DNA of 64,000 bases from NCBI RefSeq assembly GCF_025998175.1, contig NZ_AP026695.1, forward strand, positions 1,618,581 to 1,682,580. The letters are read 5' to 3'. Below, piece by piece: positions 3,137-30,545 of this stretch. This stretch comes from Nitrosopumilus zosterae (GTDB taxonomy: Archaea > Thermoproteota > Nitrososphaeria > Nitrososphaerales > Nitrosopumilaceae). The position numbers and the translations under genes are program-made. The notes below the pieces were generated by a model. It was not told where the DNA came from. It saw nothing but the letters and a program-made list of their open reading frames with translations, and made no database searches. Position 1 is the first letter of the stretch; each line of letters begins with the position of its first letter.

Positions 3137-3210
3137 GAAATATTTCCTCTTTGATAGTAAAAGAATTTTTTCGTCACATATTTAATTAATCATTATTGAA
3201 TAATAATCAA

Positions 3211-4185
3211 ATGGAGTTAAATGAGGAATTTCTTAAAATCAAAGATTTAGAAAAAACAACAGATAAAATTTGTGAATTTATCAAAGATGAAATTTCTAAT
3301 AAATTTCAGAAAAAAGGTGCAATTGTAGGTCTAAGTGGAGGAGTTGATTCTGCTGTCACTATGGCACTTTGTGCTAAATCTTTAGGTTATGAACAAATTT
3401 TAGGTTTAATCATGCCAGAAAAAGAATCAAGTTCTTCTAGTCAATTACTTGCAAAAGAAGTTGCTAAAAAATTTAATGTTGAAACAAAAATAATAGACAT
3501 TACTCAAATTTTAGAATCTTTTGGAGTTTATGATATCAAAGAGCAAATTGTAAAGGAGAAATTTCCAAAATTTAATATTGAATGTAAATATAGAGTAATT
3601 GTTCCTCCTAAATCAAAAAATATTGTTGGAATTCCGTTCTTGGAAATACTTGATGAAAACAATGAACGTCATAAATTAAAAATATCTTCTTCAGATTTTC
3701 TTACACTAACTGCTGCTACGTCAATTAAGCATAGAGTACGAATGACAATGTTATATTTTCATGCAGAAAAAAATAATTTCTCTGTAGTAGGAACCACAAA
3801 TAAATCTGAATATCAACAAGGCTATTTTGTAAAATATGGTGATGGGGGTTCCGATATTGAACCTTTAGTAAATCTCTATAAATCTCAAATTTATCAATTA
3901 GGAGAGTTTTTAAAAGTTCCCAATCAAATATTGTCTAAGGAAGCATCACCAGATGTTTGGAGTTTTTCAACCACTGATGAAGAGTTTTTTTACAGTGTTC
4001 CATATCAGATAGTTGATTTAATTTTATATGCACGAGAAAATAAGTTGTCTATAAAAGATATTCAGAAAATTTCGGATTTGTCCAAAGAGGATATTGAAAG
4101 TTTAGTTAAAATTCAAAACATAAAGCAAGTAAAAAGTCAACATATGAGAGAAATTCCTCATAGTTGGATGCCTGACTTTACTTAA
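3211..4185 (+). CDS. NadE-family ATP-dependent amide ligase (NAD synthase-like paralogue)
   Basis: The PP-loop GLSGGVDSAVT (about residues 40-50), the 'RVRMTMLYFHAEKNN' helix, VVGTTNKSEYQQGYFVKYGDGG and 'LYKSQIYQLGEFLKVP' are the diagnostic blocks of ammonia-dependent NAD synthetase. The family adenylates a carboxylate and replaces the AMP with ammonia. About 60 extra residues (EILDENNERHKLKIS region) sit between the PP-loop half and the second ATP-binding block, where normal NadE is more compact. Because it lies inside a glycan locus beside an ACP/ligase module, amidation of a sugar acid is a plausible alternative to NAD synthesis (inference). ATG at 3211 is chosen; an in-frame TTG at 3196 would add five residues. 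Confidence 0.7.
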   Translation: MELNEEFLKIKDLEKTTDKICEFIKDEISNKFQKKGAIVGLSGGVDSAVTMALCAKSLGYEQILGLIMPEKESSSSSQLLAKEVAKKFNVETKIIDITQILESFGVYDIKEQIVKEKFPKFNIECKYRVIVPPKSKNIVGIPFLEILDENNERHKLKISSSDFLTLTAATSIKHRVRMTMLYFHAEKNNFSVVGTTNKSEYQQGYFVKYGDGGSDIEPLVNLYKSQIYQLGEFLKVPNQILSKEASPDVWSFSTTDEEFFYSVPYQIVDLILYARENKLSIKDIQKISDLSKEDIESLVKIQNIKQVKSQHMREIPHSWMPDFT

Positions 4186-4227: not shown

Positions 4228-5298
4228 ATGATTGAAATTAATAAAGATAAGCATACTGAAAGTCACAATCCATTAGTTAGTATAATTATTCTCAATTATA
4301 ATGCAGGAAATTTACTTGTGGATTGTATAAATTCTATTCAAAAATCCACTTATACTAATTTTGAAATAATATTAGTTGATAATGTTTCAAAAGACAATAG
4401 TCATATTATTTGTAAAGAAAAATTTCCCACTATAAAATTAATAGAAAATTCTGAAAATTTAGGATATTGTGAAGGCAATAATGTAGGGTTAAGAAAAGCA
4501 AATGGAGAATTCATGATGGTTTTAAATCCAGATACTATTGTAGATTCCCAATGGTTAGAAGAATTGTTAAATGCTTATCAAACTAATGGTGAGGGAATTT
4601 ATCAGCCAAAATTTTTAGCTATAACGGATCATTCTATGTTGTTAAGTACTGGAAATATGATACAAATTTTTGGTTTTGGATTTTCTCGCTCTAAGGGCAA
4701 TATGGATAAAAAACAATTTGAAAATATAGAAAAAATTGATTATGTGTCTGGAACATGTCTTTTTACTTCAAAAAAGGTTCTGAAAAAAATTGGATTGTTT
4801 GATCCTTTTTTATTTGCATTTCATGATGATTTAGAATTATGCTGGCGCGCTGCATTAATCAAAATAAATTCTTTCTATGTTCCAAAATCAATTGTGTATC
4901 ATCCCATTGAAGGAACTAGTTTCAAATGGAGTCCATTAAAATTCAAGTTAATGGAGAGAAATAGAAAGTATTGTCTACTTACACTATATGATCGTAAAAC
5001 ATTGCTCAAAATGATTCCTGGATTATTTTTAGTAGACATAGCTGTATTTTTTTTCTATTTAAAGAAAGGATTAGTGAAAATGAAAATTTCAGCAGATGTT
5101 GAAATTCTTCAAAATTTTAAAATTATTAACCAAAAGTATTCCCAAAATCAAAAAATAAAAATCATTTCAGATAAAGAAATAATTCAACATCTAAAAAACA
5201 AAGTAGATGTTCCTAATTGGATAGTAGATACTAAAACTAATCATTTTTTCAATAGTTTCCTCAATAGAATATCAAAAATCACAAGAATGATAATCTAA
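4228..5298 (+). CDS. GT2 family glycosyltransferase (rhamnosyltransferase-like)
   Basis: A 356-residue GT-A fold enzyme. It opens with VSIIILNYNAGNLLVDCINSI, then 'EIILVDNVSKDNS' and SENLGYCEGNNVGLR, the standard GT2 N-terminal blocks. MMVLNPDTIVD (about residues 93-103) supplies the metal-binding DxD-type position, and FAFHDDLELCWRA near residue 190 is the catalytic-base ED/DD region typical of rhamnosyl-type GT2 enzymes. A hydrophobic stretch, MIPGLFLVDIAVFFFYL (about residues 259-275), suggests membrane association. It transfers a sugar from a nucleotide donor to a growing glycan; the sugar is unknown. The stop codon overlaps that of the convergent acpS gene (shared CTAA at 5295-5298). Confidence 0.85.
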   Translation: MIEINKDKHTESHNPLVSIIILNYNAGNLLVDCINSIQKSTYTNFEIILVDNVSKDNSHIICKEKFPTIKLIENSENLGYCEGNNVGLRKANGEFMMVLNPDTIVDSQWLEELLNAYQTNGEGIYQPKFLAITDHSMLLSTGNMIQIFGFGFSRSKGNMDKKQFENIEKIDYVSGTCLFTSKKVLKKIGLFDPFLFAFHDDLELCWRAALIKINSFYVPKSIVYHPIEGTSFKWSPLKFKLMERNRKYCLLTLYDRKTLLKMIPGLFLVDIAVFFFYLKKGLVKMKISADVEILQNFKIINQKYSQNQKIKIISDKEIIQHLKNKVDVPNWIVDTKTNHFFNSFLNRISKITRMII

Positions 5299-5654
5299 CA
5301 ATTCAAAGAATTTTTTTTGGATATAACAACTGCTATGGCATTTTGTTTTTCATGGCTTACAGAAACAAGAAAATTGTAAGAAGGATCTTTTGATAAAGAA
5401 ACTATAGGTTTAGAATCTAAATGATCAGTGATAATATCTAGAAAATCTATTTTTTTGTTTATTGATTTTATCACAGATTCCTTGATAGCAAATTTTACAG
5501 CAAATGATTGGGATGAATTTTTATTATTTAAACAATAGTCAATTTCAGATAAATGGAAAATTTTTTTATAAAAAATTTCATTGTCTTGATATGGTTTTTC
5601 TTTAAATCGTTCAATTTCTATTATATCTATACCAATTCCAATATTTTCAAGCAT
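5295..5654 (-). CDS. acpS: Holo-[acyl-carrier-protein] synthase (4'-phosphopantetheinyl transferase, AcpS type)
   Basis: A 119-residue protein, the usual AcpS length. The N-terminal GIGIDIIEIERF carries the first metal-binding Asp, and SFAVKFAIKESVIKSI matches the conserved W/F-x-x-K-E-x-x-x-K helix with the second acidic ligand. The tail 'VSVSHEKQNAIAVVI' matches the family's SISHe-x-x-x-A-A-V-V strand. It moves phosphopantetheine from CoA to a carrier-protein serine. It is transcribed divergently from the ACP gene whose start is 38 bases away, so enzyme and substrate are encoded back to back. Carrier proteins and AcpS are rare in archaea, which lack bacterial fatty acid synthesis. Confidence 0.9.
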   Translation of the reverse strand: MLENIGIGIDIIEIERFKEKPYQDNEIFYKKIFHLSEIDYCLNNKNSSQSFAVKFAIKESVIKSINKKIDFLDIITDHLDSKPIVSLSKDPSYNFLVSVSHEKQNAIAVVISKKNSLNC

Positions 5655-5691
5655 ATAGAAAATATCGAGAAGGTTTATTTATTATCTATTG

Positions 5692-5952
5692 ATGTTCGCA
5701 AATGTTATGAGTAATGATAAATTAAAGAAAATGATTAAAGAAATTTTTTTTGAAATATTTCCAAATTTAGTTGAAGATGATTTTGCCTGGGGGAAAAAGC
5801 AAAATGAATATGAAAATTGGGATTCATTTGCTCAATTAAACCTAATAACTTTTGCAGAAGCAAAATTTAACATTACATTTTCTTTAGATGAATCAATTGA
5901 AATAAAATCTGCAAATGATCTTCTAAAGTCAATACAATCACATTTAACATGA
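5692..5952 (+). CDS. Acyl carrier protein
   Basis: A small acidic carrier protein (86 residues from this ATG). The phosphopantetheine site is the serine of WDSFAQLN (residue 45), corresponding to the DS(L) motif of ACP and DltC-type carriers, with the downstream amphipathic helix ending in LLKSIQSHL. A GAGAAGG run at 5667-5673 could serve as a ribosome binding site. An in-frame TTG lies one codon upstream and a further ATG at 5707 is also possible. The gene overlaps the next, the AMP-ligase, by ATGA, so the two are almost certainly co-translated. The likely role is to hold an acyl or aminoacyl group activated by that ligase. Confidence 0.88.
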   Translation: MFANVMSNDKLKKMIKEIFFEIFPNLVEDDFAWGKKQNEYENWDSFAQLNLITFAEAKFNITFSLDESIEIKSANDLLKSIQSHLT

Positions 5953-7388
5953 ATATTATTAATTTTCTCAAAAAAAATGTAGAAAAATACCCTACAAAAA
6001 TTGCTATAATTGATGAGGATGCAAGTATAACTTTTCAGAAACTTTATGAAGAAGTTCAAAAATTTTCAACATCCATTTCATTTTTAAATGAAAAAGACGT
6101 TATTAGTCTTATTTCAGATAATTCAATTTCATTTGTTATTTCATATTTAGGAATAATTAATGCAGGAAAGTTAGTTCATCTAATTCCACCTGAAATTTTT
6201 GAGAGTAATCTATCTACTCAATTAGAAGCATCCAATTCAGGAGCCATTATTTGTTCCAAATTAAATAAAAAGAGTTTTTTAGAAAATCAATCAATAAAAA
6301 TTCCAATTTATGGAATAGAGGAAGTTCTATCAAACCAAGAAAAAATTTCAGATATCAAAAAAAATAATGACTTGGCATATCTGATTTACACTTCTGGAAC
6401 AACATCAGATCCAAAAGGTGTTGCAGTATCTCATAAAATGATAGATTTTACTACCAAAAATATTGTAAAGGTTTTAGGATATTCGGATTCAGATATTGAT
6501 CTTTTGCCCTTACCACTTCATCATTCTTTTGGATTAGGATGTGTTCATACTTCATTATATACAGGATCAACACTTGTTTTATTAAAAAATGCAAGTAATT
6601 TAGAATTTATGTTTGAGACATTAAAAAAATTTAAAGTAACAACATTTGCAGCCATTCCAGCAACTTTAACAAAAATATTAAAATTTGATAGAAATCTATT
6701 GGAGAGTTATTTTTCAAATATTCGATTAATAATTACCAATAGTACATCAATTCCTAAAAACACTGTACAAAATTTTAAACATATTTTAGTAAATGGAAAT
6801 TTAGCAACATATTATGGATTAACTGAAGCATCACGTTCTTCTTTTATGATATTTGATGAAAAAAATGATAGGGATGAGTCTGTAGGAAAAGCTGCACCTA
6901 AAGTAGAGATAAAGATTGTTAATGATGAAAAAAATGAATCAAACTTGGGTGAAATTTGGATTAAAGGCGATAATGTGATTAAAAACTATTGGAGAAATTA
7001 TGAAGCTGATAAAAATTTGATTGATGGATGGTTACGAACAGGAGACATTGGGTATTTTGATGAAGAGAAATATCTTTTTCTAAAAGGACGTAATGATGAT
7101 ATAATTAACATTGGGGGGGAGAAAGTTTCACCACTAGAAATTGAAGAAAGCGTAAAAGAAATTTTAGGGGTAGATGACGTTGCGGCATTTGGTATAATGC
7201 ATGAAATTTTTGGTCAAACAATTAAGATTAATGTAGTTAAGGCAAAAGATTCCGATTTGAGCAAGTCTCAAATTTTGAGTCACTGCATAAAAAATCTTGA
7301 AAAATATAAAATCCCATCAAAAATTGATTTTGTTGAGAGAATTCCTAAAACAGACTACGGAAAAGTTAAACGTTTTATGCTAAAATAA
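5949..7388 (+). CDS. AMP-forming acyl/aryl ligase of the ANL superfamily, ACP-loading
   Basis: A 479-residue adenylating enzyme. YLIYTSGTTSDPKGVAVSH (about residues 144-162) is the AMP-binding P-loop, YYGLTEASRSS the A5 motif, GWLRTGDIGYF the A7 motif, and LKGRNDDIINIGGEKVSP the hinge A8 motif. The catalytic lysine is Lys472 in DYGKVKR near the C-terminus. Length and order resemble DltA-type and O-antigen-locus ligases. It should activate a carboxylic acid as acyl-AMP and pass it to the ACP encoded just upstream (4-base overlap). The substrate is unknown. Its low GC matches its neighbours, so no separate origin is evident from composition. Confidence 0.87.
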   Translation: MNIINFLKKNVEKYPTKIAIIDEDASITFQKLYEEVQKFSTSISFLNEKDVISLISDNSISFVISYLGIINAGKLVHLIPPEIFESNLSTQLEASNSGAIICSKLNKKSFLENQSIKIPIYGIEEVLSNQEKISDIKKNNDLAYLIYTSGTTSDPKGVAVSHKMIDFTTKNIVKVLGYSDSDIDLLPLPLHHSFGLGCVHTSLYTGSTLVLLKNASNLEFMFETLKKFKVTTFAAIPATLTKILKFDRNLLESYFSNIRLIITNSTSIPKNTVQNFKHILVNGNLATYYGLTEASRSSFMIFDEKNDRDESVGKAAPKVEIKIVNDEKNESNLGEIWIKGDNVIKNYWRNYEADKNLIDGWLRTGDIGYFDEEKYLFLKGRNDDIINIGGEKVSPLEIEESVKEILGVDDVAAFGIMHEIFGQTIKINVVKAKDSDLSKSQILSHCIKNLEKYKIPSKIDFVERIPKTDYGKVKRFMLK

Positions 7389-7399
7389 CTATAGACATC

Positions 7400-7930
7400 A
7401 TGATTAATTCCAAGAATTTTAGAGATAATGAACAAGAATTAATGGATTATTACGGATATGTAGGATTTGGGGGAAGGATAAAAATTCGAATAAAATTTCT
7501 AAAGAGTTGGATTTTTCATTCTTTGGCTTATTCATCACCTTTACCCTCATGGTCAATTAAATTTCAAAGGATGCGAGGAGTGAAGATCGGAGAAAATTGC
7601 CATATTTCTCCATATGTCTTAATAGATCTATTACATCCAGAGTTAATCAAAATTGAAGATAATGTAACAATTAGTTCTAATTCAATGATATTTGCTCATG
7701 TAAATCCCTCAGCAAATGATTTTTTAAAAAAACATGGTTATCCCAGAACAATCAAATCTGTGATTGTTAAAAAAGGTGCAGTAATCAGTGTTGGATGTAT
7801 AATAATTGCAGGAGTAACAATAGGAGAAAACGCAATAGTTGGTGCTGGGAGTGTTGTAACTCAGGATGTGCCAGATTATTGTGTCGTGGTAGGAAATCCA
7901 GCAAGAGTAGTAAAAAAAATTGATCATTAA
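7400..7930 (+). CDS. Left-handed beta-helix (hexapeptide) acyltransferase
   Basis: A 176-residue protein whose middle and C-terminal part is made of hexapeptide turns: VKIGENCHIS, IKIEDNVTIS, VIVKKGAVISVGCIIIAGVTIGENAIVGAGSVVT, ending in the family's 'PDYCVVVGNPARVVKKI'. This is the maltose/galactoside/colanic acid acetyltransferase group. A histidine in the FAHVNPS loop could be the catalytic base. It begins 12 bases after the AMP-ligase, so it is a natural candidate for transferring the ACP-bound acyl group to a sugar hydroxyl or amine; acetyl-CoA is the usual donor in this family, so that remains inference. Confidence 0.85.
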   Translation: MINSKNFRDNEQELMDYYGYVGFGGRIKIRIKFLKSWIFHSLAYSSPLPSWSIKFQRMRGVKIGENCHISPYVLIDLLHPELIKIEDNVTISSNSMIFAHVNPSANDFLKKHGYPRTIKSVIVKKGAVISVGCIIIAGVTIGENAIVGAGSVVTQDVPDYCVVVGNPARVVKKIDH

Positions 7931-7985: not shown

Positions 7986-8546
7986 TTGAAATTTGTGGGT
8001 TTTACTTTTAAAAGATTATCAATTCCAGAAGTTATTCTAGTTGAACCAAAATTATATTCAGACAGCAGAGGTTTTTTCTATGAAAGTTTTAAAGAATCAG
8101 ATTTTTTTTCAAATGAAATAACAAAATTTGTACAAGATAATGTCTCACATTCAATTAATGGAGTAATCAGAGGTTTGCATTATCAAATAAATCCAAAACC
8201 TCAAGCAAAATTAGTAAGTGTATTTAATGGAAAAATTTTTGATGTTGCAGTAGATATCAGAAAAAAATCTCCAACATATGGAAGATGGGTAGCTGAAATT
8301 CTTTCAGACGAGAATCACAGATCATTATATGTTCCAGAAGGATTTGCTCATGGATTTTGTGTTATGAGTAAAGAAGCAGATGTGTTTTATAAGGTAAGCA
8401 ATGAACATTCACCAGAAAACGAACGTGGAATAATTTGGAATGATCCAACATTAAACATTCCATGGTCAGTAAAAAAACCAATTATTTCAGATAAAGACAG
8501 CAAGTTACCATTACTAGAAGAAACCGAAAATAATTTTATTTACTAA
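7986..8546 (+). CDS. rfbC: dTDP-4-dehydrorhamnose 3,5-epimerase
   Basis: A 186-residue cupin-fold epimerase. RGFFYESF at the start, then GVIRGLHYQINPKPQAKLVSV with the catalytic histidine, 'FDVAVDIRKKSPTYGRW', the LYVPEGFAHGF strand and VFYKVSNEHSPENERGI with the conserved tyrosine are all present. It converts dTDP-4-keto-6-deoxyglucose to dTDP-4-keto-rhamnose. TTG is the only start that gives the usual N-terminus. It leads the run rfbC-rfbB-rfbD, while rfbA lies about 11 kb downstream. Confidence 0.95.
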   Translation: MKFVGFTFKRLSIPEVILVEPKLYSDSRGFFYESFKESDFFSNEITKFVQDNVSHSINGVIRGLHYQINPKPQAKLVSVFNGKIFDVAVDIRKKSPTYGRWVAEILSDENHRSLYVPEGFAHGFCVMSKEADVFYKVSNEHSPENERGIIWNDPTLNIPWSVKKPIISDKDSKLPLLEETENNFIY

Positions 8547-8588
8547 AAAATACATTAGAGTTAAATAATTAATTCCTAATTCGTAAAT

Positions 8589-9590
8589 ATGAAAATTTTA
8601 GTTTGTGGAGGAGCAGGATTTATTGGGAGTGCATTTATTAGAAATCATTTTAACAATCACCCAAAAGATGAAATAATAAATTTAGATTCACTTACAATAG
8701 GTTCGAATTTACTAAATCTGAAACAAATTGGACAAAATCAAAATTACCAATTTTTTAAAGAAGATATAAAAAATCAAGAAATTGTAAATAAATTAGCAAA
8801 CGATGTAGATGTCATAGTTAATTTTGCAGCTGAATCTCATGTAGATAGAAGCATTGCAAATCCAAAACCATTCATAGAAACAAATATTCTTGGAACATAT
8901 TCTTTATTAGAAGCTACAAAAAAATACAACAAATTATTCATTCATGTTTCAACTGATGAAGTTTATGGGGATGCAGAAGATTTAGATTCATTTACTGAGA
9001 AATCTTTGATTAAGCCTAGTAATCCTTATTCAGCTACAAAAGCATCTGCAGATCATTTAGTTGCCGCATATCATAGAACATATAACATAAAATGCATTAC
9101 TACACGATGTACCAATAATTTTGGTCCTTTCCAATTCCCAGAAAAATTGATTCCTAAAACAATTATTAGAGCTAAAAAGAATCTGAAGGTTCCATTGTAT
9201 GGAGACGGAAACCAAATTAGAAGTTGGATCTATGTATATGATCATGTACAAGCAATTGACGATCTAATTTTAAGAGGTGTTCATGGTCAGGAATATAATA
9301 TTACTGCATGGAATGAAATTTCAAACAAAATAATCGTAGAAAAAATTCTAAAATTTCTTGGAAAATCGGATGATTTGATTGAACATGTTAAAGATAGACC
9401 AGGTCATGATAGAAGATATTCGATAGATGCCGCAAAAATTCAAAATGAAATTGGATGGAAACCAAAACATGAATTTGAGCAGGCTCTTAATGAAACAGTT
9501 GAATGGTATGAACAAAATCAGGAATGGTGGGAGCCATTAGTTGATGATAATTCTTTACATTCACAACCATGGACTCTTACCTGTAAATGA
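8589..9590 (+). CDS. rfbB: dTDP-glucose 4,6-dehydratase
   Basis: A 333-residue extended SDR. GGAGFIGSAFIRNH is the NAD-binding turn; VNFAAESHVDRSI, VSTDEVYGD (with the catalytic Thr-Asp-Glu triplet of dehydratases), 'YSATKASADHLVAAY' with the YxxxK pair, and CTNNFGPFQFPEKLIP are family signatures. It makes dTDP-4-keto-6-deoxyglucose from dTDP-glucose. The last four bases (ATGA) are the start of rfbD, indicating one operon with translational coupling. Confidence 0.95.
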   Translation: MKILVCGGAGFIGSAFIRNHFNNHPKDEIINLDSLTIGSNLLNLKQIGQNQNYQFFKEDIKNQEIVNKLANDVDVIVNFAAESHVDRSIANPKPFIETNILGTYSLLEATKKYNKLFIHVSTDEVYGDAEDLDSFTEKSLIKPSNPYSATKASADHLVAAYHRTYNIKCITTRCTNNFGPFQFPEKLIPKTIIRAKKNLKVPLYGDGNQIRSWIYVYDHVQAIDDLILRGVHGQEYNITAWNEISNKIIVEKILKFLGKSDDLIEHVKDRPGHDRRYSIDAAKIQNEIGWKPKHEFEQALNETVEWYEQNQEWWEPLVDDNSLHSQPWTLTCK

Positions 9591-10477
9591 CTAAAATTTT
9601 AGTGACTGGATCAACTGGGCTTGTTGGAAGACAAGTAGTAAGGGATCTTGTTAGGAAAAATTATGAAGTCTATGCTTGTTATAATAGAATAAAACCAGAA
9701 TTTGGCATTCCTGTAAATCTAGATCTTTCAAAAACAGACAAAATAATCAGTGTTTTACACAGCATAAATCCAAATATAATAATTCATCTTGCAGCTATCA
9801 CAGATTTAGAAAAATGTGAAATTCAAAGAGAACAAGCAGTTTTAATCAACACGGATTCAACTAGAATTCTGGCTAGAGAGTCAACAAAACTAGGTGCATT
9901 TTTTATTTATGTTTCAACAGATTATGTTTTTGATGGGACAGAAGGATATAGAAAAGAAGACGATATAACTAATCCACTAAATATTTATGGAAAATCAAAA
10001 TTGGATGGCGAAATTGCTATAAGGGATTCAACATCAAAATATGCTATAATTAGAACTAGTACACCATTTGGATTACATTCAACAAAAAAAAGTTTTCCTT
10101 TATGGATTAAGGAGAATCTTGAAGGGGGAAAAGAAACATCTGTGTTAATTGATCAATTCACATCACCAACATATGTACCAAATCTTTCAAAAATGATCAT
10201 AGAAGTAACACTAAAACAGATTATTGGTATCATTCATTTAGCTGGAGCTACAAGAATTTCTAGATATGAATTTGCCATAATGATTGCAGAAAAGCTTGAT
10301 CTTGATAAATCATTACTAAAACCAATAAAAATTCAAGACATGAATTGGAAAGCTACAAGACCAAAAGACTCATCTCTAGATATTTCAAAAGCTAAAAAAA
10401 TTTTGATGAACAAACCTGAAGAAATTGAATATGCCTTAGAAAATTTTATTTATGAAATAAAAAATCTTAAAAATTAA
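9587..10477 (+). CDS. rfbD: dTDP-4-dehydrorhamnose reductase
   Basis: A 296-residue SDR. VTGSTGLVGRQVV is the cofactor turn, VSTDYVFDG carries the Thr/Asp-Tyr block, and 'NIYGKSKLDGEIAI' gives the YxxxK catalytic pair, as in RmlD. The enzyme performs the last reduction to dTDP-L-rhamnose. It overlaps rfbB by four bases. The following convergent gene is a membrane-anchored GT2 enzyme on the other strand, separated by a 47-base AT-rich gap. Confidence 0.92.
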   Translation: MTKILVTGSTGLVGRQVVRDLVRKNYEVYACYNRIKPEFGIPVNLDLSKTDKIISVLHSINPNIIIHLAAITDLEKCEIQREQAVLINTDSTRILARESTKLGAFFIYVSTDYVFDGTEGYRKEDDITNPLNIYGKSKLDGEIAIRDSTSKYAIIRTSTPFGLHSTKKSFPLWIKENLEGGKETSVLIDQFTSPTYVPNLSKMIIEVTLKQIIGIIHLAGATRISRYEFAIMIAEKLDLDKSLLKPIKIQDMNWKATRPKDSSLDISKAKKILMNKPEEIEYALENFIYEIKNLKN

Positions 10478-10524
10478 AAAATATTGAATATTTATTTATA
10501 AGAATTTGAAAAAGATTTTCAGTA

Positions 10525-11409
10525 TTAATTTTGTCTGTTTTCCCTAACAACATTTACTATGGAATAAAGAATTGTAGCTGTAATTAATAAAATTGTGCCT
10601 AAGATCACCCCTCCAATACCAATAAGAGCAATATTTGTCATCACTACTCGTTCTTCAGAATAGATTTGCATAGTCCAAGCTCCAAAAATTAATCCCAAAA
10701 TAAGAAAACATAATCCTGTCACTCCATAATACAAAAGAGGTCGTTCAATGGCTACATGTTTTACTGTACTCATAACAACTGAAGTTCCATGAGATATTGG
10801 TTCTTGAGAATGAGTATTATTTTCATAAGAAATAGTAATAGGAATTTCAGTTATCCTCATATTCTTTTTTGAAGCTTTAATGAGAATTTCTGTAGAAATT
10901 CCCATGCCTGATTCAGTGGGAAAAATTTGATCAATCACATTTTTTTTATATGCTCTGAAACCACTTTGTGAATCAGTTATCTTAGAACCCGTCATCACGT
11001 TAGTAAGTCCAGTGATTGTTTTAATGCCAATTTTTCTGTATGTTGGTAAACCTTTTGTTGTTCCAAGAAATCTTGAACCTATTACAATGTCTGCTTTATT
11101 ATCATAGATTGGTTTTAACATTGAGTCAATTTCAGATATTTGATGTTGTCCATCTGCATCAAAAGTTACCAAAACATCACCTTCAATTTTTTTTGATTCA
11201 TTAAAAATAGTTTTTATTGCAGAGCCATATCCCATGTTTTTGTCATGTTTTACAACATGAACGCCCATTAATGATGCAATTACAGATGTCATATCTGATG
11301 AACCATCATCACACACAATAATTTGGGCATATTTTTGCTTTAATTTTGCAATAATTGATCCTATATTTCTTTCTTCATTAAATGCAGGAATTCCAATTAT
11401 TACTTTCAA
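10525..11409 (-). CDS. Dolichyl-phosphate sugar synthase-like GT2 glycosyltransferase with C-terminal membrane anchor
   Basis: A 294-residue protein. GIPAFNEERNIGSII and 'IIVCDDGSSDMTSV' open a GT2 domain, VLVTFDADGQHQ gives the DxD metal site, and IGSRFLG and TDSQSGFRAYKK are blocks of the DPM1-like group. After about residue 215 come two hydrophobic segments (LCFLILGLIFGAWTM and IALIGIGGVILGTILLIT), placing the enzyme at the cytoplasmic face of the membrane. It probably loads a sugar onto a dolichol/polyprenyl phosphate carrier that GT-C enzymes such as the one at 14.1 kb could use. Confidence 0.87.
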   Translation of the reverse strand: MKVIIGIPAFNEERNIGSIIAKLKQKYAQIIVCDDGSSDMTSVIASLMGVHVVKHDKNMGYGSAIKTIFNESKKIEGDVLVTFDADGQHQISEIDSMLKPIYDNKADIVIGSRFLGTTKGLPTYRKIGIKTITGLTNVMTGSKITDSQSGFRAYKKNVIDQIFPTESGMGISTEILIKASKKNMRITEIPITISYENNTHSQEPISHGTSVVMSTVKHVAIERPLLYYGVTGLCFLILGLIFGAWTMQIYSEERVVMTNIALIGIGGVILGTILLITATILYSIVNVVRENRQN

Positions 11410-11525
11410 ATTATGATAGTTTCTTTTGATTGGTTATTTAAGGAGTGGCAATCTAAAATGCATAGAAACCTCATATCAAGTATTATTTTGTGGTTAATTT
11501 TTTAATATGAATATTCTCAACAAAG

Positions 11526-13016
11526 ATGAAAATGAAATTATTATTTTGGATCAATGTATTTATGTTACATTTTGGATTATCTTATTATTTAAAGCAAAAA
11601 CTTGATGCAGAATTTACTGCCATTATTGATACTCCCAATAAGCCGAAACAAATGTTTCTTAATCAAAAAATAGTTGATTTTAGAAAAACATGGTATTTTC
11701 ACGATCATATTAAAAAAACAACAGTAAATCCAGATCTAGAATATTTATCAAGTTTTGAAAAAAAATATCATATTGATTTATGGAAACTGGCATTAAACGA
11801 AAGGCATTTTTATAGATTCAATAATTTTTATAAATTTACGACCAATGAAATTTTGAAATTTTTAGAACAAGAGTGTAAATTATTTGAACAAATTTTGGAT
11901 GAAGTTAAACCAGATTATTTTTTGACATACGATCCACCATTTCATCATCAAAAATTATTAATGGATTTATGTAAAGCCAAAGGTATCAAGGTCTTATGTA
12001 TTTTCATATCAAGATATAAAGATAAAAGCATTATTGCTGAAAGCGGTAGTACTTTTGATTTACCTCGAAATTTAGACATGATAGAATTGAATGAATCAGA
12101 GAAAAATGGACTAGATGAAATAATGAATGAATCTAGTTATAATGCGTTAACAAAAAAATGGACAAATGAAAGAAATGTTTCAACATCAAACAAACTCAAA
12201 GCTTTGACAGATTATGTACTATTTTCTGATTCCAAAAATACACAATCAAATTTTACTTATTATGGGAGAAATAAATTAAAAGTTATTCAAGATACCATTT
12301 CATTTTACATAAAGCGTGAATGGAGATCAAGATACTTGGAGAAAAATCTTAAAAAAGTAGTTGATTTAGATATTCCATTTGTGTATTATCCTCTCAATAT
12401 TGATGCTGAATTAACTATTCTTCATTATGCTCCTTTTTTTACTAATCAAATTGAAATTATCAGACACATAGCAAAATCTCTTCCAGTTGATCATATGTTA
12501 TATGTTAAGGAACATATTCATGCTGTCTTTAGAGGATGGAGAGAAACAAGTCAATATAAGGAATTAATTGAAATTCCGAATGTTGTTGTAATTCATCCTT
12601 CTTATTCTTCAAATGAGTTAGTTAAAAATAGTAAATTGGTGATTACTATCAGGGGAACTGCAACCATTGATGCAGCATATCAAAACAAACCTTCAATAAT
12701 TTTTGGCGATATGGCACACGATATGTTACCATCAGTTTACAAAATTGAAAATCTTAGAGATTTACCTGAATTGATAAAAACCGCATTAAGGACACCAATT
12801 AATTCAGTGTATATTAACAAATATCTTAAGTTAATGAAAGAGAGAACTTTTGATTTTAATTGGTGGGATTATGAAAATAAAAGAAATAATCAATTTTATT
12901 CAGGAAATATTCTTTCTGATGTTGAATATCAAGAAAACGATGTAAAAGAATTTTTTGATAATAATAAAGAAATATTTGAAACATTAGCAAACGCGCATTT
13001 ATCAAAAATCGAATGA
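11526..13016 (+). CDS. Capsule-synthesis-like glycosyltransferase, paralogue A
   Basis: A 496-residue protein paralogous to the 527-residue one at 23.2 kb. Both carry a Y-F/Y-P-L block with acidic residues (VYYPLNIDAELTILHYAPFF here), then SLPVDHMLYVKEHIHA, VVVIHPSYSSNELVKNSKLVITIRGTATIDAAYQNKPSIIFGD. This is the pattern of capsular polysaccharide synthesis proteins of the KpsC/KpsS-like (Capsule_synth) group. The N-terminal half is shared too (FYRFNNFYKFT against FYRFWTHFHKFT). Here the usual HP of the KEHP motif is HI. Donor and acceptor are unknown. An alternative ATG lies two codons downstream. Confidence 0.7.
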   Translation: MKMKLLFWINVFMLHFGLSYYLKQKLDAEFTAIIDTPNKPKQMFLNQKIVDFRKTWYFHDHIKKTTVNPDLEYLSSFEKKYHIDLWKLALNERHFYRFNNFYKFTTNEILKFLEQECKLFEQILDEVKPDYFLTYDPPFHHQKLLMDLCKAKGIKVLCIFISRYKDKSIIAESGSTFDLPRNLDMIELNESEKNGLDEIMNESSYNALTKKWTNERNVSTSNKLKALTDYVLFSDSKNTQSNFTYYGRNKLKVIQDTISFYIKREWRSRYLEKNLKKVVDLDIPFVYYPLNIDAELTILHYAPFFTNQIEIIRHIAKSLPVDHMLYVKEHIHAVFRGWRETSQYKELIEIPNVVVIHPSYSSNELVKNSKLVITIRGTATIDAAYQNKPSIIFGDMAHDMLPSVYKIENLRDLPELIKTALRTPINSVYINKYLKLMKERTFDFNWWDYENKRNNQFYSGNILSDVEYQENDVKEFFDNNKEIFETLANAHLSKIE

Positions 13017-21097: not shown

Positions 21098-21190
21098 ATA
21101 GTTATTTGAGATTTGGGCGTGTTAAAAAAAATCAATATTAAGTCAATTATTTTCAGATTACTTAAATTAGAAGAAAAATCTTCATCAAGA

Positions 21191-22246
21191 ATGAAAGGGA
21201 TTATTTTACATGGAGGTCATGGAACAAGATTACGACCTCTTACACACACGGGTCCAAAACAATTGTTACCAATAGCAAATAAACCAATGTCTAATTATTG
21301 TGTAGAAACATTAATTCAAGCGGGTATACATGATATTGTCTTTATAGTTGGCGGTGTTGGTTCAGAAAAAGTAAATGAATTTTATGGTAATGGTGAAAAA
21401 TTTGGTGCTAAATTTTCATACATAGAACAAGATTTCCCTAAAGGAATAGCTCATGCAATTTCACTATGTCAAGAGTTTATTGATGGAGAAAAATTTGTGG
21501 TTTTTCTAGGAGATAATATAATCAATAAAGATATTAGTAAATTTATTTCTGATTTTAAAACATCTAATTCATTTGCATCATTGTTATTATGTGAAGTTGA
21601 AAACCCCTCACAATTTGGAATTGCCGAAATAAAAAATAATAAAATAATTAACATTACAGAAAAACCAAAAAACCCTTCATCTAATCTTGCAGTTACTGGA
21701 ATTTACTGTTTAACACCACATATCTTTGAAGTAATAAAAAAATTGACGCCATCCTGGAGAAATGAATTAGAAATAGCGGATGCACTTCAAATCTTAATTA
21801 AAGAAGATAAAGAGGTAACATTTGAAATGATTACAGATTTTTGGAAAGATACAGGTACTCCAAAGGACATAATTGAAGCAAATAGAAAAATTCTTGAAAA
21901 TATGGAAGGGTTTCAAAAAGGAGAAAAAGAAGAGGGTGTAAAAATTACAGGAAAAGTTATGATTGATGAAGGTGTAAAAATTGAAAATGGGGTAAAAATT
22001 ACAGGTCCTGTGATTATTGGAAAAAATTGTATTATTGGAGAAAATTCTGAAATTAAAGGAAATACAAGCATTGGAGAAAATTCTGAAATTAAAGGATGCG
22101 TAATTTCTGATTCCATCATCATGTCAAATTGTGTACTTGAAGGGAAATTTGAAATAAAAAATAGTATAATTGGATCAAACTCCAGAATTCAAAAAAATCA
22201 AGATAAAAAATTTCTTTTAGGAGAAGGTTCTCAAATATCAATATAG
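21191..22246 (+). CDS. rfbA: Glucose-1-phosphate thymidylyltransferase-like sugar nucleotidyltransferase with beta-helix tail
   Basis: A 351-residue protein from the ATG at 21191, where the family normally starts: MKGIILHGGHGTRLRPLTH, the nucleotide-binding signature with histidine in place of the usual alanine before GG. GPKQLLPIANKPM, VVFLGDNII (Asp of the metal site), 'GIAEIKNNKIINITEKPKNP' and DFWKDTGTPKDI follow. After about residue 230 there is a hexapeptide left-handed beta-helix with repeated IGENSEIKG turns. It should make dTDP-glucose for the rfbB-C-D genes upstream. The in-frame extension back to 21113 is unlikely to be translated. Confidence 0.82.
   Translation: MKGIILHGGHGTRLRPLTHTGPKQLLPIANKPMSNYCVETLIQAGIHDIVFIVGGVGSEKVNEFYGNGEKFGAKFSYIEQDFPKGIAHAISLCQEFIDGEKFVVFLGDNIINKDISKFISDFKTSNSFASLLLCEVENPSQFGIAEIKNNKIINITEKPKNPSSNLAVTGIYCLTPHIFEVIKKLTPSWRNELEIADALQILIKEDKEVTFEMITDFWKDTGTPKDIIEANRKILENMEGFQKGEKEEGVKITGKVMIDEGVKIENGVKITGPVIIGKNCIIGENSEIKGNTSIGENSEIKGCVISDSIIMSNCVLEGKFEIKNSIIGSNSRIQKNQDKKFLLGEGSQISI
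22034..22096 (+). repeat. Intragenic 27-base exact repeat in the beta-helix tail of rfbA
   Basis: The 27 bases at 22034-22060 recur exactly at 22070-22096, a 36-base period encoding IGENSEIKG twice. Just upstream, two near-identical GTAAAAATTACAGG units (21939 and 21991 areas) encode VKITG twice. This indicates growth of the helix by in-frame tandem duplication. Confidence 0.9.
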
Positions 22247-26587: not shown

Positions 26588-27286
26588 TTAAGATGGGATT
26601 AATTTTTGTTTTATCATCATTTCAGCTAATCTAAATTCAATTTCAGTATCAATCATGTGACCACATTCAAGAGGTATTTCAAGGGGTAGAGATTTGGGCA
26701 AAATTGGATTTTTATATTTTAAAAATTGAGCAACATCATAAACAAATAATCCATTGAGTTGGTAGACAATGGGGGCTTCCTGTCTACTTTTTGGTCGATT
26801 TTTTAATTTTTTACAAAGTCGAAGAAATCCTGATAAATCTTTTTCCATCATATTGAAATATGGATTGAAATGCTGTCTGTAAACTCCATAAACAGCATTT
26901 GGTTTTTTATTTTTCAGAAGATCAATTGCCTTTTTCATATCCGATATTCTAATGAAGGGTACAGTACAGTCTCTATTTACTAAAACATCAAATTGATAAT
27001 CTAGTTGTCTGAGTTGTTTAATTCCATGAAGCATTACATCTGCAAAACCAGTAGAATCAGATGCGAGATTTTTTGGACGCTTAAATGGAACTTCAGCGCC
27101 ATATTTTTTTGAAATTTTTGCAATTTCAGGATCTTCAGTAGATACAATCACATGATTGAAAAGTCTAGATTCAAGAGCAGATTCAATAGCATAAGCAATT
27201 AGAGGTTTTTTATTTAATAAACGAATATTTTTCCTAGGGACACCCTTTGAACCTCCTCTAGCACCTATAAAGCAAATAGTTTTCAA
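26588..27286 (-). CDS. Acylneuraminate cytidylyltransferase (CMP-nonulosonate synthetase)
   Basis: A 232-residue protein starting at a TTG whose product begins KTICFIGARGGSKGVPRKNIRLL, the nucleotide-binding signature of CMP-sialate and CMP-legionaminate synthetases. The longer frame back to 27343 would add 19 residues of unrelated sequence. 'HVIVSTEDPEIAKISKKYGAEV', PFKRPKNLASDST and VNRDCTVPFIRISD follow in family order. It activates a nonulosonic acid with CTP, working with NeuB and NeuC encoded 1-4 kb away on the other strand. Whether the sugar is sialic, legionaminic or another acid is not decided by this sequence. Confidence 0.87.
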   Translation of the reverse strand: MKTICFIGARGGSKGVPRKNIRLLNKKPLIAYAIESALESRLFNHVIVSTEDPEIAKISKKYGAEVPFKRPKNLASDSTGFADVMLHGIKQLRQLDYQFDVLVNRDCTVPFIRISDMKKAIDLLKNKKPNAVYGVYRQHFNPYFNMMEKDLSGFLRLCKKLKNRPKSRQEAPIVYQLNGLFVYDVAQFLKYKNPILPKSLPLEIPLECGHMIDTEIEFRLAEMMIKQKLIPS

Positions 27287-27447
27287 AATTTCTATTTCAC
27301 TAAACTTTTGTGTGTTAAATAAATTACTAGTTAGAGAAATCAAGGAAAAAAGGCATGAAAGTAATCATTAAAAATTAATGAACTTTACACAAATATGAAG
27401 ATTAATCAGATAAGATTAAAAATGGAATTTCTTTCTATGAAATATTT

Positions 27448-28338
27448 ATGGATAAAATTCAAAAACGGGCTCTTACCAAAGAGTTAAAGAATAAATCAGT
27501 TCTTGTAACTGGTGGAGCTGGAAGTATAGGTTCAGTATTAGTTGAAACACTTCTTGAATTTCCAGTTCAATCTGTAAGAGTTTTAGATATTGATGAATAT
27601 GCTTTGGCAAAATTAGGTAAAAAATTAAAGGATTCCAGATTAAGGATTTTGCTTGGAAGTATTTTGGATCAAGATAGAGTAGACATGGCAGCAGACGGAA
27701 TCGATATTGTATTTCATCTTGCTGCAATCAAGAATATCGAAATTTCGGAATTTAATCCAATTGAGACAATTGATACTAACGTAAACGGAACTGCAAATAT
27801 AATTAAAATGCTGATCAAAAAAAGACCTTCAAAATTTATTAATATCAGTACGGATAAAGCAGCCGATGCTTCTACTCTTTATGGAAATACAAAACAACTT
27901 GGAGAAAGACTTGCAAGTTGGGCTGGTGTTCATATCAAAGGAACGAAATCAGCAACGGTTAGATTTGGAAATGTAATTGAATCAAGAGGAAATGTTTTTG
28001 AAGTTTGGAACGAAGAAAAGAAAAACAACAAGCCTTTATCTATAACAGAGCCTTCAATGAAAAGATATTTTATCCATTCAGATGAAGTGATAGATTTTAT
28101 TCTAAAATGTCTGTTAATGGCAAAAGCAGGCGAAGTTTTTATCCCAAAAATGCAATCTTTTAATATAAAAAAATTAGCAGATGATATTTCAAAATCTCAA
28201 AAAGTTATTGGACTTAGACGGGGGGAAAAATTAGAAGAGATTTTGTTGAACAATGAAGAAAAATCCAGAGCTGTGGAAAAAAGTAACATGTGGATTATCA
28301 AACCATATGAAAAAATAGTAAAAAATAAGATGGACTAG
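27448..28338 (+). CDS. UDP-sugar 4,6-dehydratase of the soluble CapD/PseB/LegB type
   Basis: A 296-residue extended SDR. VLVTGGAGSIGSVLVETL is the cofactor turn, 'FHLAAIKNIEISEFNPIE' with Lys-Asn, ISTDKAADASTLYGNTKQLGERL with the Asp-Lys and YxxxK pairs, and VRFGNVIESRGNVFEVW are signatures of UDP-GlcNAc 4,6-dehydratases and CapD. No membrane segments, unlike the long FlaA1/WbpM forms. It precedes neuB by 36 bases. With NeuC and NeuB it would fit a legionaminic acid route, but the needed aminotransferase and acetyltransferase are not in the window. Confidence 0.85.
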   Translation: MDKIQKRALTKELKNKSVLVTGGAGSIGSVLVETLLEFPVQSVRVLDIDEYALAKLGKKLKDSRLRILLGSILDQDRVDMAADGIDIVFHLAAIKNIEISEFNPIETIDTNVNGTANIIKMLIKKRPSKFINISTDKAADASTLYGNTKQLGERLASWAGVHIKGTKSATVRFGNVIESRGNVFEVWNEEKKNNKPLSITEPSMKRYFIHSDEVIDFILKCLLMAKAGEVFIPKMQSFNIKKLADDISKSQKVIGLRRGEKLEEILLNNEEKSRAVEKSNMWIIKPYEKIVKNKMD

Positions 28339-28374
28339 ATTAAATTAATACATAACAAGAATGGTAACCAAATA

Positions 28375-29406
28375 TTGAAAGATATTAAAATTGGAAATCG
28401 AATAATAGGTGAACATCATCCAGTTTTTGTAATTGCCGAAGCAGGAATAAACCACAATGGTTCACTTTTAATTGCTAAAAAATTAGTGGATATGGCAAAA
28501 AAAGCAGGTGCTGACTGCATTAAATTTCAAACTCACATAACAGAAGAAGAAATGACAAAGACAAAAATTTTACCAGGAAAGATTTCAAAAAAACCGCTAT
28601 GGGACATAATTAAGAGTTGTGAATTGAATGTAGATGAAGAAAAGAAATTAAATGAGTATTGCAAAAAAAGAAAAATTATTTTTTTATCTACACCATTTTC
28701 TATTCCTGCAATAGATAGACTAGAAAAAATTAAAATGCCAGCATATAAAATTGGTTCAGGTGAATTAACAAATTTGCCATTTTTAAAAGCTATTGCACAA
28801 ACTAAGAAACCAGTAATTCTTTCAACAGGAATGTCTGAATTAAGTGAAATTAAAGAAACAGTGAAATTATTTAAAAAATCAAAAATACCATTAGCTATTC
28901 TTCAAACAACATCAGAATATCCATGTGATTATAAAGATGTTAATTTACTAGTTATAGATAATTATAAAAAATTATTTAATTTACCGGTTGGAATTTCAGA
29001 TCATTCATTGGGAATTTATACGGTTTTAGGAGCTGTAGCCAGAGGAGCATGTATAGTTGAAAAACACATAACACTAGATAAAAAAATGCCGGGTCCGGAT
29101 CAGAAAATATCATTGGAATTTAATGAATTAAAAGAATTAGTTAAAGGATGTAGAGCAATTAAACTTGCATTAGGAAGCACTAAAAAAATTCTTAAAGGCG
29201 AATTAGAAGTTTTAAACTTTGCAAGAGAATCAGTAGTAACTAAAGAAAAAATATCCAAGGGGGAAATATTCACTGAGGCAAATTTGATAACAAAAAGGCC
29301 TAACACTGGAGAAATTCCTGCAAAAAATTTCTACATGATTCTTGGAAAAAAGGCTAAAAAAGACATTCAAAAAAATAAACAGCTGAAATTTAGTGATATA
29401 GTTTGA
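28375..29406 (+). CDS. neuB: N-acetylneuraminate/nonulosonate synthase
   Basis: A 343-residue protein with the TIM-barrel NeuB domain, PVFVIAEAGINHNGSLLIAKKLVD, DCIKFQTH, 'STPFSIPAIDRLEKIKMP', YKIGSGELTNLP, VGISDHSLGIYT and EKHITLDKKMPGPDQKIS, followed from about residue 285 by the SAF/antifreeze-like domain (VTKEKISKGEIFT to the end). It condenses phosphoenolpyruvate with a six-carbon acetamido sugar. TTG start. The stop overlaps the start of neuC (TTGA at 29403-29406), so they are translationally coupled. Confidence 0.93.
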   Translation: MKDIKIGNRIIGEHHPVFVIAEAGINHNGSLLIAKKLVDMAKKAGADCIKFQTHITEEEMTKTKILPGKISKKPLWDIIKSCELNVDEEKKLNEYCKKRKIIFLSTPFSIPAIDRLEKIKMPAYKIGSGELTNLPFLKAIAQTKKPVILSTGMSELSEIKETVKLFKKSKIPLAILQTTSEYPCDYKDVNLLVIDNYKKLFNLPVGISDHSLGIYTVLGAVARGACIVEKHITLDKKMPGPDQKISLEFNELKELVKGCRAIKLALGSTKKILKGELEVLNFARESVVTKEKISKGEIFTEANLITKRPNTGEIPAKNFYMILGKKAKKDIQKNKQLKFSDIV

Positions 29407-30545
29407 GGAAAAAAATTTTATTTGTAACTGAACGTAGAGCAGATTATTCAAAACTACGTCCAGTTATTAATGAAATAAAAAAATCAAAAAAATTTGATTA
29501 CTATTTAGTTGTAACAGGAAGTCATCTATTAAAAAAACACGGCTACACAATTAATGAGATCAAGAATGATGGATTTCATATATACAAAAAATTCAAAATG
29601 TTTGAAGAAAATGATGATGATTCCCCAGCAACAATGACCATGGCTTTTGGCAAAGCAGTTATCAATTTAACCAAAATAATAAAATCGTTAAAACCAGATT
29701 TAATTTTCTCAGGTTTTGATATTGGCGCTAATTTTGCAGCTGCAATTATAGGCGCACACATGAATATTCACGTTGCTCATTTAGAAGGAGGAGAGATAAC
29801 AGGAACAATAGACGAATCAATAAGACATGCAATTTCTAAATTTGCTCATATTCATTTTACAAGTAATACGCAAGCAACAAAAAGACTAATCAAAATGGGG
29901 GAATTGCCAAAAAATATTTTTACAGTAGGAAATCCATCATTAGACGTAATAAAATCTATAAAATTTATTCCCAAGAAAAAATTGGAAGATGAGTTTAACA
30001 TTAATTTGGAAAAACCGTTATTATTGGTTGTTCAACATACTGTAACAACAGAAATTAATAAAATTGACAAGTATTTCTCAGAGACAATAAATGCAATTAA
30101 AGATACAAACATTCAAACCATAATTATTTCAGGAAATGTAGATGCAGGTTCACAAAAAATTAAAAAAATTATCAAAAATTCAAATATATCAAATTATGAA
30201 AACTTACCATTCATCAAATACATTAGTTTACTGTACTATTCTTCAGCAATAATAGGTAATTCTAGTAGTGGAATAATGGAAGCGCCATTTTTACATATTC
30301 CTTCTATCAATATTGGTACACGTCAAGAAGGGAGAGGAAAAACAAAAAGTATCATAAATGTAAAATATGATAAAAATAAAATCAAAATGGCAATCAATAA
30401 GGTATTAACAGACAAAAAATTCTTAAATTCAATTAAAAAACAAAAAAATCAACACGGTAATGGAATAGCATCTAAGAAAATAATTCAAATTTTAGAAAAA
30501 TTAAATTTTGAAAATATATCAATTCAAAAAAAATTAGCATATTAA
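29403..30545 (+). CDS. neuC: Hydrolysing UDP-N-acetylglucosamine (or bacillosamine) 2-epimerase
   Basis: A 380-residue GT-B-like epimerase. ILFVTERRADYSKLRPVI is the NeuC/LegG N-terminus, 'SGFDIGANFAAAIIGAHM', AHLEGGEITGTIDESIRHAISKFAHIHF and IIGNSSSGIMEAPFLHIP with the conserved Glu and His residues follow. It frees ManNAc or a 2,4-diacetamido analogue from the UDP-sugar as substrate for NeuB. The TTG start overlaps the neuB stop by four bases. Confidence 0.9.
   Translation: MRKKILFVTERRADYSKLRPVINEIKKSKKFDYYLVVTGSHLLKKHGYTINEIKNDGFHIYKKFKMFEENDDDSPATMTMAFGKAVINLTKIIKSLKPDLIFSGFDIGANFAAAIIGAHMNIHVAHLEGGEITGTIDESIRHAISKFAHIHFTSNTQATKRLIKMGELPKNIFTVGNPSLDVIKSIKFIPKKKLEDEFNINLEKPLLLVVQHTVTTEINKIDKYFSETINAIKDTNIQTIIISGNVDAGSQKIKKIIKNSNISNYENLPFIKYISLLYYSSAIIGNSSSGIMEAPFLHIPSINIGTRQEGRGKTKSIINVKYDKNKIKMAINKVLTDKKFLNSIKKQKNQHGNGIASKKIIQILEKLNFENISIQKKLAY

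Follow-up and report, generated by a model that had tools for sequence, protein, structure and literature searches.

Within a 64,000-nucleotide stretch of the Nitrosopumilus zosterae genome (contig NZ_AP026695.1; the whole stretch is referred to as the window and positions are counted from its first letter), we analysed a gene cassette built around an acyl carrier protein (ACP). The cassette opens with a gene for a NadE-like ammonia-dependent amide ligase of the NF002048/PRK00876 subfamily (3196-4185, forward strand), a probable module member, followed by a family-2 glycosyltransferase gene (GT2; 4228-5298, forward; PF00535, 99 bits). The 3′ end of the latter overlaps tail to tail with the gene for AcpS, a 4′-phosphopantetheinyl transferase of 119 amino acids encoded on the reverse strand (5295-5654). 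The AcpS and ACP genes are divergent, and the short stretch separating them holds a TATA-like element, TTTATTTATTAT (5674-5685, forward). The ACP gene (5689-5952, forward; start at 5689, 5692 or 5707) is followed by genes for an ANL-superfamily adenylate-forming ligase (5949-7388, forward; PF00501, 211 bits; PF13193, 45 bits), the proposed ACP loader, and for a left-handed β-helix (hexapeptide) acyltransferase (7400-7930, forward; PF00132, 46.5 bits), the proposed enzyme of acyl transfer. This cassette is a conserved, selected module, a variant on a known bacterial kind of pathway that has been little described in archaea.

AcpS, ACP, ligase and acyltransferase had been placed at these positions by an initial annotation made from the sequence, and open reading frames together with domain and fold matches confirmed that all four are intact. 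AcpS is the sole PF01648 match in the genome and scored 51.9 bits against a cut-off of 25 in the Pfam search; in the NCBIfam search it missed the TIGR00516 acpS equivalog cut-off (47.7 versus 59.8). All 39 archaeal AcpS sequences in the alignment share its residues D10, K58 and E59, of which D10 and E59 represent the metal-binding Asp/Glu motif. The ACP gave no Pfam or NCBIfam match, PF00550 (PP-binding) included. The PF00550 model misses this divergent ACP group, and Woesearchaeal and Falkowbacterial homologues align with the window ACP. An AlphaFold model built with six homologues has the four-helix ACP fold (pLDDT 93.8), with helices at residues 3-17, 40-54, 60-65 and 69-80 and Ser40 at the beginning of helix 2. 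When this model was compared to the PDB with Foldseek, the best matches listed were all carrier proteins, among them 2LML (GmACP3 of Geobacter metallireducens) and 4H2U, a carrier that belongs to a glycine ligase of Bradyrhizobium. GmACP3, which shares 25% identity with the window ACP and has the WDS motif, was also the sole PDB sequence match below E=0.3 (E=1.8e-4, 25 bits); its authors reportedly suggested a role in lipopolysaccharide. In the window the WDS motif is encoded by codons 5818-5826, and W38, D39 and S40 are invariant across the alignment of ACPs from ANL-ligase cassettes (type A, the window's kind). The serine (codon 5824-5826) is the predicted phosphopantetheine site. It becomes Ser46, Ser45 or Ser40 if the ACP starts at 5689, 5692 or 5707, respectively; the initial annotation gave Ser45.

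The start of the ligase gene overlaps the end of the ACP gene by ATGA, a coupling retained in the related loci L061, L065, L083 and L039. With its AMP-binding and C-terminal domains, TSGTT loop, TGD motif and lysine, the protein is a member of the ANL superfamily by sequence; T148-T152 (TSGTT loop), T364-D366 (TGD) and the C-terminal K472 are invariant in six homologues. The acyltransferase gene starts after a gap of 11 bases and not 12 as first reported. The catalytic histidine of the acyltransferase, H100, is invariant in all homologues, including the distant ones from FkbH cassettes, and in the NCBIfam search its best named relatives were acetyltransferases. Ratios of non-synonymous to synonymous substitution rates (dN/dS) against the closest syntenic relative, L061, were 0.16 for AcpS, 0.23 for the ACP, 0.25 for the ligase and 0.07 for the acyltransferase, which makes the last the most conserved gene of the module. 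Because the genes are syntenic in other genomes and under purifying selection, a chance arrangement is excluded. Scattered or non-syntenic genes in relatives had been proposed as a refuting test for the module, and synteny was found to be kept. In addition, TTTATTTATTAT is identical in all six type-A loci compared, suggesting that it may act as a promoter element.

To our knowledge, archaea are usually said to lack carrier proteins, and ACPs are held to be rare there. We searched 400 genomes of the class for AcpS and ACP (395 for NF002048) and found AcpS in 47 of them. The rarity assumed in the initial annotation therefore stands, but the combination of ACP and AcpS is recurrent in the class, usually accompanied by an FkbH loader. 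AcpS is encoded beside an ACP and a dedicated loader in 38 of the 47 genomes, the loader being FkbH in 31 (type B) and an ANL ligase in seven (type A). The contig of one of these seven, G321, stops after the ACP; the ANL ligase adjoins the ACP in every strong-match type-A genome whose contig continues. Strong matches to the type-A ACP model (119-140 bits) were obtained in 7 of the 400 genomes, all of which have AcpS (Fisher p=2e-7), and FkbH over the cut-off coincides with AcpS in 30 of 34 FkbH genomes (Fisher p=7e-29). Further type-A cassettes were found outside this sample (L080, L083 and L086), and at least eight Nitrosopumilaceae genomes have the cassette. The window, L061, L065 and L083 each have the full order NadE2 (the NadE-like gene), GT2, AcpS (reverse), ACP, ligase, acyltransferase, while in L066 and L086 NadE2 sits downstream of the acyltransferase. 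AcpS, ACP and ligase follow one another in this order in one Falkowbacteria contig, too, and in one from Woesearchaeota, where LuxE/LuxC lie downstream of them and a NeuB-like gene lies upstream. The presence of a dedicated loader in 38 of the 47 AcpS genomes points to a non-lipid role of carrier proteins in abundant ocean archaea.

The commoner, FkbH-type cassette consists of GT2, AcpS, a MaoC-like hydratase, ACP, FkbH and acyltransferase. The GT2-AcpS pair is common to both types; GT2, AcpS and acyltransferase are homologous between them, and in the acyltransferase tree the two types group together with full support, separately from the soil-type ones. This indicates that the frame stayed while the loader changed. 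The loading enzyme is thus the exchangeable part of the cassette. The ANL-type acyltransferases are non-monophyletic in this tree, which suggested repeated loader swaps. However, a single origin was not rejected by the approximately unbiased test (p=0.287), and we claim one exchange only.

The window lies in an archaeal genome of 1.78 Mb assembled in one contig, that of a presumed marine ammonia oxidiser. The cassette is surrounded by glycosyltransferases and by RfbC, RfbB and RfbD homologues (7986-10477, forward), named from sequence and synteny as of the dTDP-6-deoxyhexose/rhamnose type and likely to provide the acceptor pathway; a sugar nucleotidyltransferase is encoded at 21113-22246. A nonulosonate-type set at 26588-30545 comprises a CMP-sugar type cytidylyltransferase and Polysacc_synt_2, NeuB and UDP-GlcNAc 2-epimerase homologues, whose product is an alternative candidate for the acceptor sugar. 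Together, these predicted neighbours support a surface-glycan setting. When the genome was searched, PF01648 matched a single gene, PF00550 detected no ACP, and only fragmentary thiolase-like matches of 14-15 bits were obtained for a ketosynthase, none of them convincing. The AcpS/ACP pair therefore looks dedicated rather than part of fatty acid synthesis.

The product of 3196-4185 scored 345 bits against NF002048 (cut-off 313). It is an extra copy, as a separate housekeeping NadE of the PRK13980 type is encoded elsewhere in the genome. NF002048 (E < 1e-60) was found in five of the 395 class genomes, all type-A carriers (p=2.7e-10); one of the five copies, that of G112, is interrupted by a frameshift and scores slightly below the cut-off. 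Among the genomes with a type-A ACP only L039 and L045 lack this subfamily, and these are the two that have LuxE/LuxC. When ligase and NadE-like protein were searched separately against plasmid records, both led to the same rhizobial operon of asnB, ACP, ligase and nadE (asnB-ACP-ANL-nadE), which is also present on pSymB of Sinorhizobium meliloti 1021. The rhizobial plasmids L110, L112, L113, L114, L116 and L117 share this operon, with nadE annotated as NAD(+) synthase, probably wrongly. The window protein is closer to the NadE of these operons (194-221 bits) than to the NadE of its own genome (126 bits). Judging from replicon and gene order, the pSymB operon is very probably that of SMb20650 and SMb20651. 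The ligase SMb20650 is cotranscribed with the ACP SMb20651, which it acylates in Escherichia coli when co-expressed with AcpS, and it fails to support growth needing long-chain acyl-CoA (PMC7232532). On a Rahnella plasmid (L111), also matched, the ligases adjoin a ketosynthase-III-like gene; we regarded this as another type of cluster and did not include it.

Shared ancestry of the whole module with rhizobia was also considered and rejected, since in the ligase tree the archaeal, Woesearchaeal and Falkowbacterial ligases form a fully supported clade and the rhizobial ligases lie outside it on a long branch, in a separate supported clade. The NadE pairing is therefore recurrent and not one inherited block. 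This makes it stronger evidence of a functional tie and argues for a role of NadE in the acyl pathway rather than on the sugar. We consider it likely that the NadE-like protein works in the same pathway as the ACP and the ligase. The initial annotation had suggested that this gene could modify the sugar, whereas it is probably part of the carrier module, as its subfamily tracks the window's kind of ACP exactly in archaea and is operonic with an ACP and an ANL ligase in rhizobia. For the N-glycan of Nitrososphaera viennensis, another ammonia oxidiser, Hex(NAc)2(CONH2) units, i.e. with a carboxamide on the sugar, have been proposed (PMC12153357), and by analogy sugar amidation by the NadE-like protein is possible. 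The tie of NF002048 proteins to ACP chemistry in archaea and rhizobia suggests that their annotation as NAD synthase is mistaken, and their real substrate can now be sought.

The A4 motif of the ligase reads HSFGLG, and His192 aligns with the FH histidine of the 2-succinylbenzoate (MenE) and oxalate (AAE3) CoA ligases. In amino-acid-activating ANL enzymes such as DltA and the adenylation domains of nonribosomal peptide synthetases, an aspartate at this position (FDxS) is the norm; in our alignment this aspartate is absent from the window ligase, with His192 in its place. Every archaeal, Woesearchaeal and Falkowbacterial homologue has Arg296, which follows YYGLTEAS, and the rhizobial ones also keep an arginine there. 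Its counterpart in the aligned oxalate ligase 5IE0 is His319, a residue that presumably touches the substrate. H192, R296 and K472 are invariant among the homologues aligned, and the closest solved relatives are CoA ligases for oxalate, 2-succinylbenzoate and malonate. An AlphaFold model of the ligase from six sequences was poor (pLDDT 60.9), and the pocket was read solely from the alignment. It may suit a small acid that bears a polar or acidic group, which is only a hint. A 3-hydroxypropionyl or 4-hydroxybutyryl group had initially been put forward as one candidate for the substrate, and nothing in our analysis supports either. Both 3-hydroxypropionate and 4-hydroxybutyrate already occur as CoA esters in these cells, which argues mildly against them where a free-acid ligase is used.

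Four known kinds of system resemble parts of the cassette. In function it is similar to the rhizobial operon and to the ACP/ligase sets of bacterial flagellin glycosylation islands, but by gene content it belongs to neither. Like the window, the rhizobial operons have an ACP followed by an ANL ligase, an NF002048 NadE and an arginine after YGxTE. Unlike the window, they include AsnB, for which no homologue was found in the window, and have neither AcpS nor the acyltransferase in the operon; their ligases carry FDYG or FGYG instead of HSFGLG. ACPs and AMP-dependent ligases are also found in protein-glycan loci of Enterobacteriaceae and Aeromonas (PMC4875605, PMC7874193). By their published description, the flagellin glycosylation islands of these bacteria contain ACP, AMP-dependent ligase, LuxE, LuxC and FabG, and the archaeal relatives L039, L045 and L085, in which ACP-ANL occurs with LuxE/LuxC homologues, resemble them. 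In the window, the NadE-like and hexapeptide acyltransferase genes stand in place of the Lux genes, and AcpS belongs to the same cluster. The window yielded no homologue of LuxC or LuxE, and the only LuxC match in the genome, elsewhere, was under the cut-off at 20.1 bits.

In tetronate and related polyketide pathways, FkbH takes a glyceryl group from 1,3-bisphosphoglycerate and charges a discrete ACP with it (PMC3625739). The FkbH cassettes of the class share with these systems a discrete ACP and a dedicated loader, presumably of a small C3 acid. FkbH (TIGR01686) gave no match in the window's genome, where the ANL ligase takes its place. The FkbH cassettes (L034, L041, L052, L055, L064 and others; 31 of the 47) often include a MaoC-like hydratase and, in some cases, a FabG-like reductase; together these could process glyceryl-ACP further, for instance towards lactyl-ACP. 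The fourth system, Dlt (DltA-DltD), likewise combines a separate ANL ligase and carrier protein with a surface polymer as target. It differs in using the MBOAT protein DltB, whereas the window has an acyltransferase of cytoplasmic type.

We infer the following pathway. AcpS would convert the ACP to its holo form, and the ANL ligase would adenylate a small polar carboxylic acid, though not an α-amino acid, and load it onto the ACP. The NadE-like enzyme would probably make a carboxamide on the free acid or on the acyl group. The hexapeptide acyltransferase would then pass the ACP-bound acyl group on to a sugar, the likeliest acceptor being a dTDP-activated or lipid-linked 6-deoxyhexose, and the glycan would be exported to the surface layer (S-layer) or another surface protein. 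A 6-deoxyhexose precursor is proposed as acceptor because most cassettes, whether type A or type B, have RfbB-like genes at their flanks. The individual steps differ in strength. That the ligase loads the ACP is very likely, and transfer by the acyltransferase from ACP to sugar is fairly probable; a carboxamide on the acyl group itself is put forward tentatively. Taken as a whole, a dedicated ACP pathway with an exchangeable loader that decorates a surface sugar with a small acid is the account we favour, with some reserve. Such a dedicated four-gene pathway had been proposed at the outset. The gene set, the glycan locus, the synteny and the lack of another ACP or AcpS in the genome searches bear this out in part, and the final transfer to a sugar stays an interpretation.

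Several points weigh against this account. Nothing in the sequence of the locus identifies the acid. CoA donors are common among hexapeptide acyltransferases, and the proposal that the ACP acts as donor here draws on linkage only. In the Lux-type relatives L039 and L045, ACP and ligase occur but neither this acyltransferase nor NadE does, so ACP and ligase can serve another end enzyme. Moreover, the S-layer of a marine relative, Nitrosopumilus piranensis, showed no N-glycan (PMC12153357), which would tell against the account if that species carries the cassette.

Another explanation is that ACP, ligase and NadE-like protein make a modified acyl or amide compound, such as a free amide or a small metabolite, and that the acyltransferase is a separate, linked acetyl-CoA sugar O-acetyltransferase. 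This would agree with the acetyltransferases among its closest named relatives and with the rhizobial operons, which have no acyltransferase gene inside them and of which that of S. meliloti adjoins minCDE, not glycan genes. However, in nearly all cassettes of Nitrosopumilaceae the acyltransferase comes immediately after the ligase or the FkbH-ACP block and, as shown by its dN/dS, it is the gene under the strongest conservation. We therefore regard a separate acetyltransferase as unlikely.

Less probable still is a reading of the ligase as a CoA ligase, with ACP and AcpS being a remnant or in other use. Although the nearest solved relatives of the ligase are CoA ligases, the translational coupling to the ACP and the purifying selection on the ACP (dN/dS 0.23) speak for a joint function. 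So do the presence of ACP and AcpS together with the ligase in archaea, Woesearchaeota and Falkowbacteria and the ligase-ACP precedent of S. meliloti.

A Dlt-like pathway, in which a membrane MBOAT would use an aminoacyl-ACP to acylate the cell exterior, has the combination of ANL ligase and ACP in its favour. Furthermore, in the closest syntenic relative, L061 (10988-13449), an SGNH-like protein and an MBOAT are encoded directly after the acyltransferase, and in L064 (8946-13694) a second ACP lies beside an MBOAT/SGNH-like pair whose MBOAT scored 178 bits to DltB. In contrast, PF03062 (MBOAT) was not found in the window's genome, the ligase has a histidine instead of the aspartate of amino-acid-activating enzymes, and AcpS is missing from 15 of 27 MBOAT genomes. 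Membership in the Dlt system was rejected on the first two grounds, and we hold such a pathway to be quite improbable here. The MBOAT and SGNH-like pairs of L061 and L064 are in themselves a possible archaeal counterpart of Dlt-type export acylation, and a membrane step may have been added in some relatives. Finally, a reduced fatty acid or polyketide pathway, of which ACP and AcpS are the usual marks, was dropped as highly improbable, since the genome search gave no convincing ketosynthase and the cassette holds no FabG, FabZ or acyl-CoA reductase homologue.

For the favoured pathway of surface-sugar decoration, the cassette enzymes are concrete targets for assay. No published description of the archaeal cassette was found in the literature searched, which covered few subscription journals. 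The S-layer of ammonia oxidisers has been implicated in ammonium capture (PMC12153357, PMC11153153), so a decoration of the S-layer would matter to these cells. On a more speculative note, ammonia-oxidising archaea might possess a general ACP platform in which AcpS, ACP, glycosyltransferase and acyltransferase are constant and loaders are swapped: FkbH for a glyceryl-derived group, ANL ligase with NadE for a carboxamide acid, and ANL ligase with LuxE/LuxC. The lineage of the window would then have turned to a nitrogen-bearing acyl group, and the surfaces of close relatives would vary by cassette exchange, plausibly under phage pressure or in connection with ammonium handling at the S-layer.

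Some cassettes in the sample appeared damaged or differently placed. In L066 (G112; 8278-12047 and upstream) a T run in the ACP gene has a length of 9 instead of 8, which shifts the frame, and NadE2, GT2 and a large glycosyltransferase-like gene are also split; these are either assembly indels or signs of a decaying cassette. FkbH is broken into several open reading frames with internal stops in L036 (G107) and L076 (G073), which suggests either that some lineages have lost the cassette or that the assemblies are poor. More remote members of the order (L031, L051 and L056) carry acyltransferase-FkbH-ACP-AcpS; in L031 the flanking genes are unlike glycan genes, and the FkbH set may serve another purpose there.

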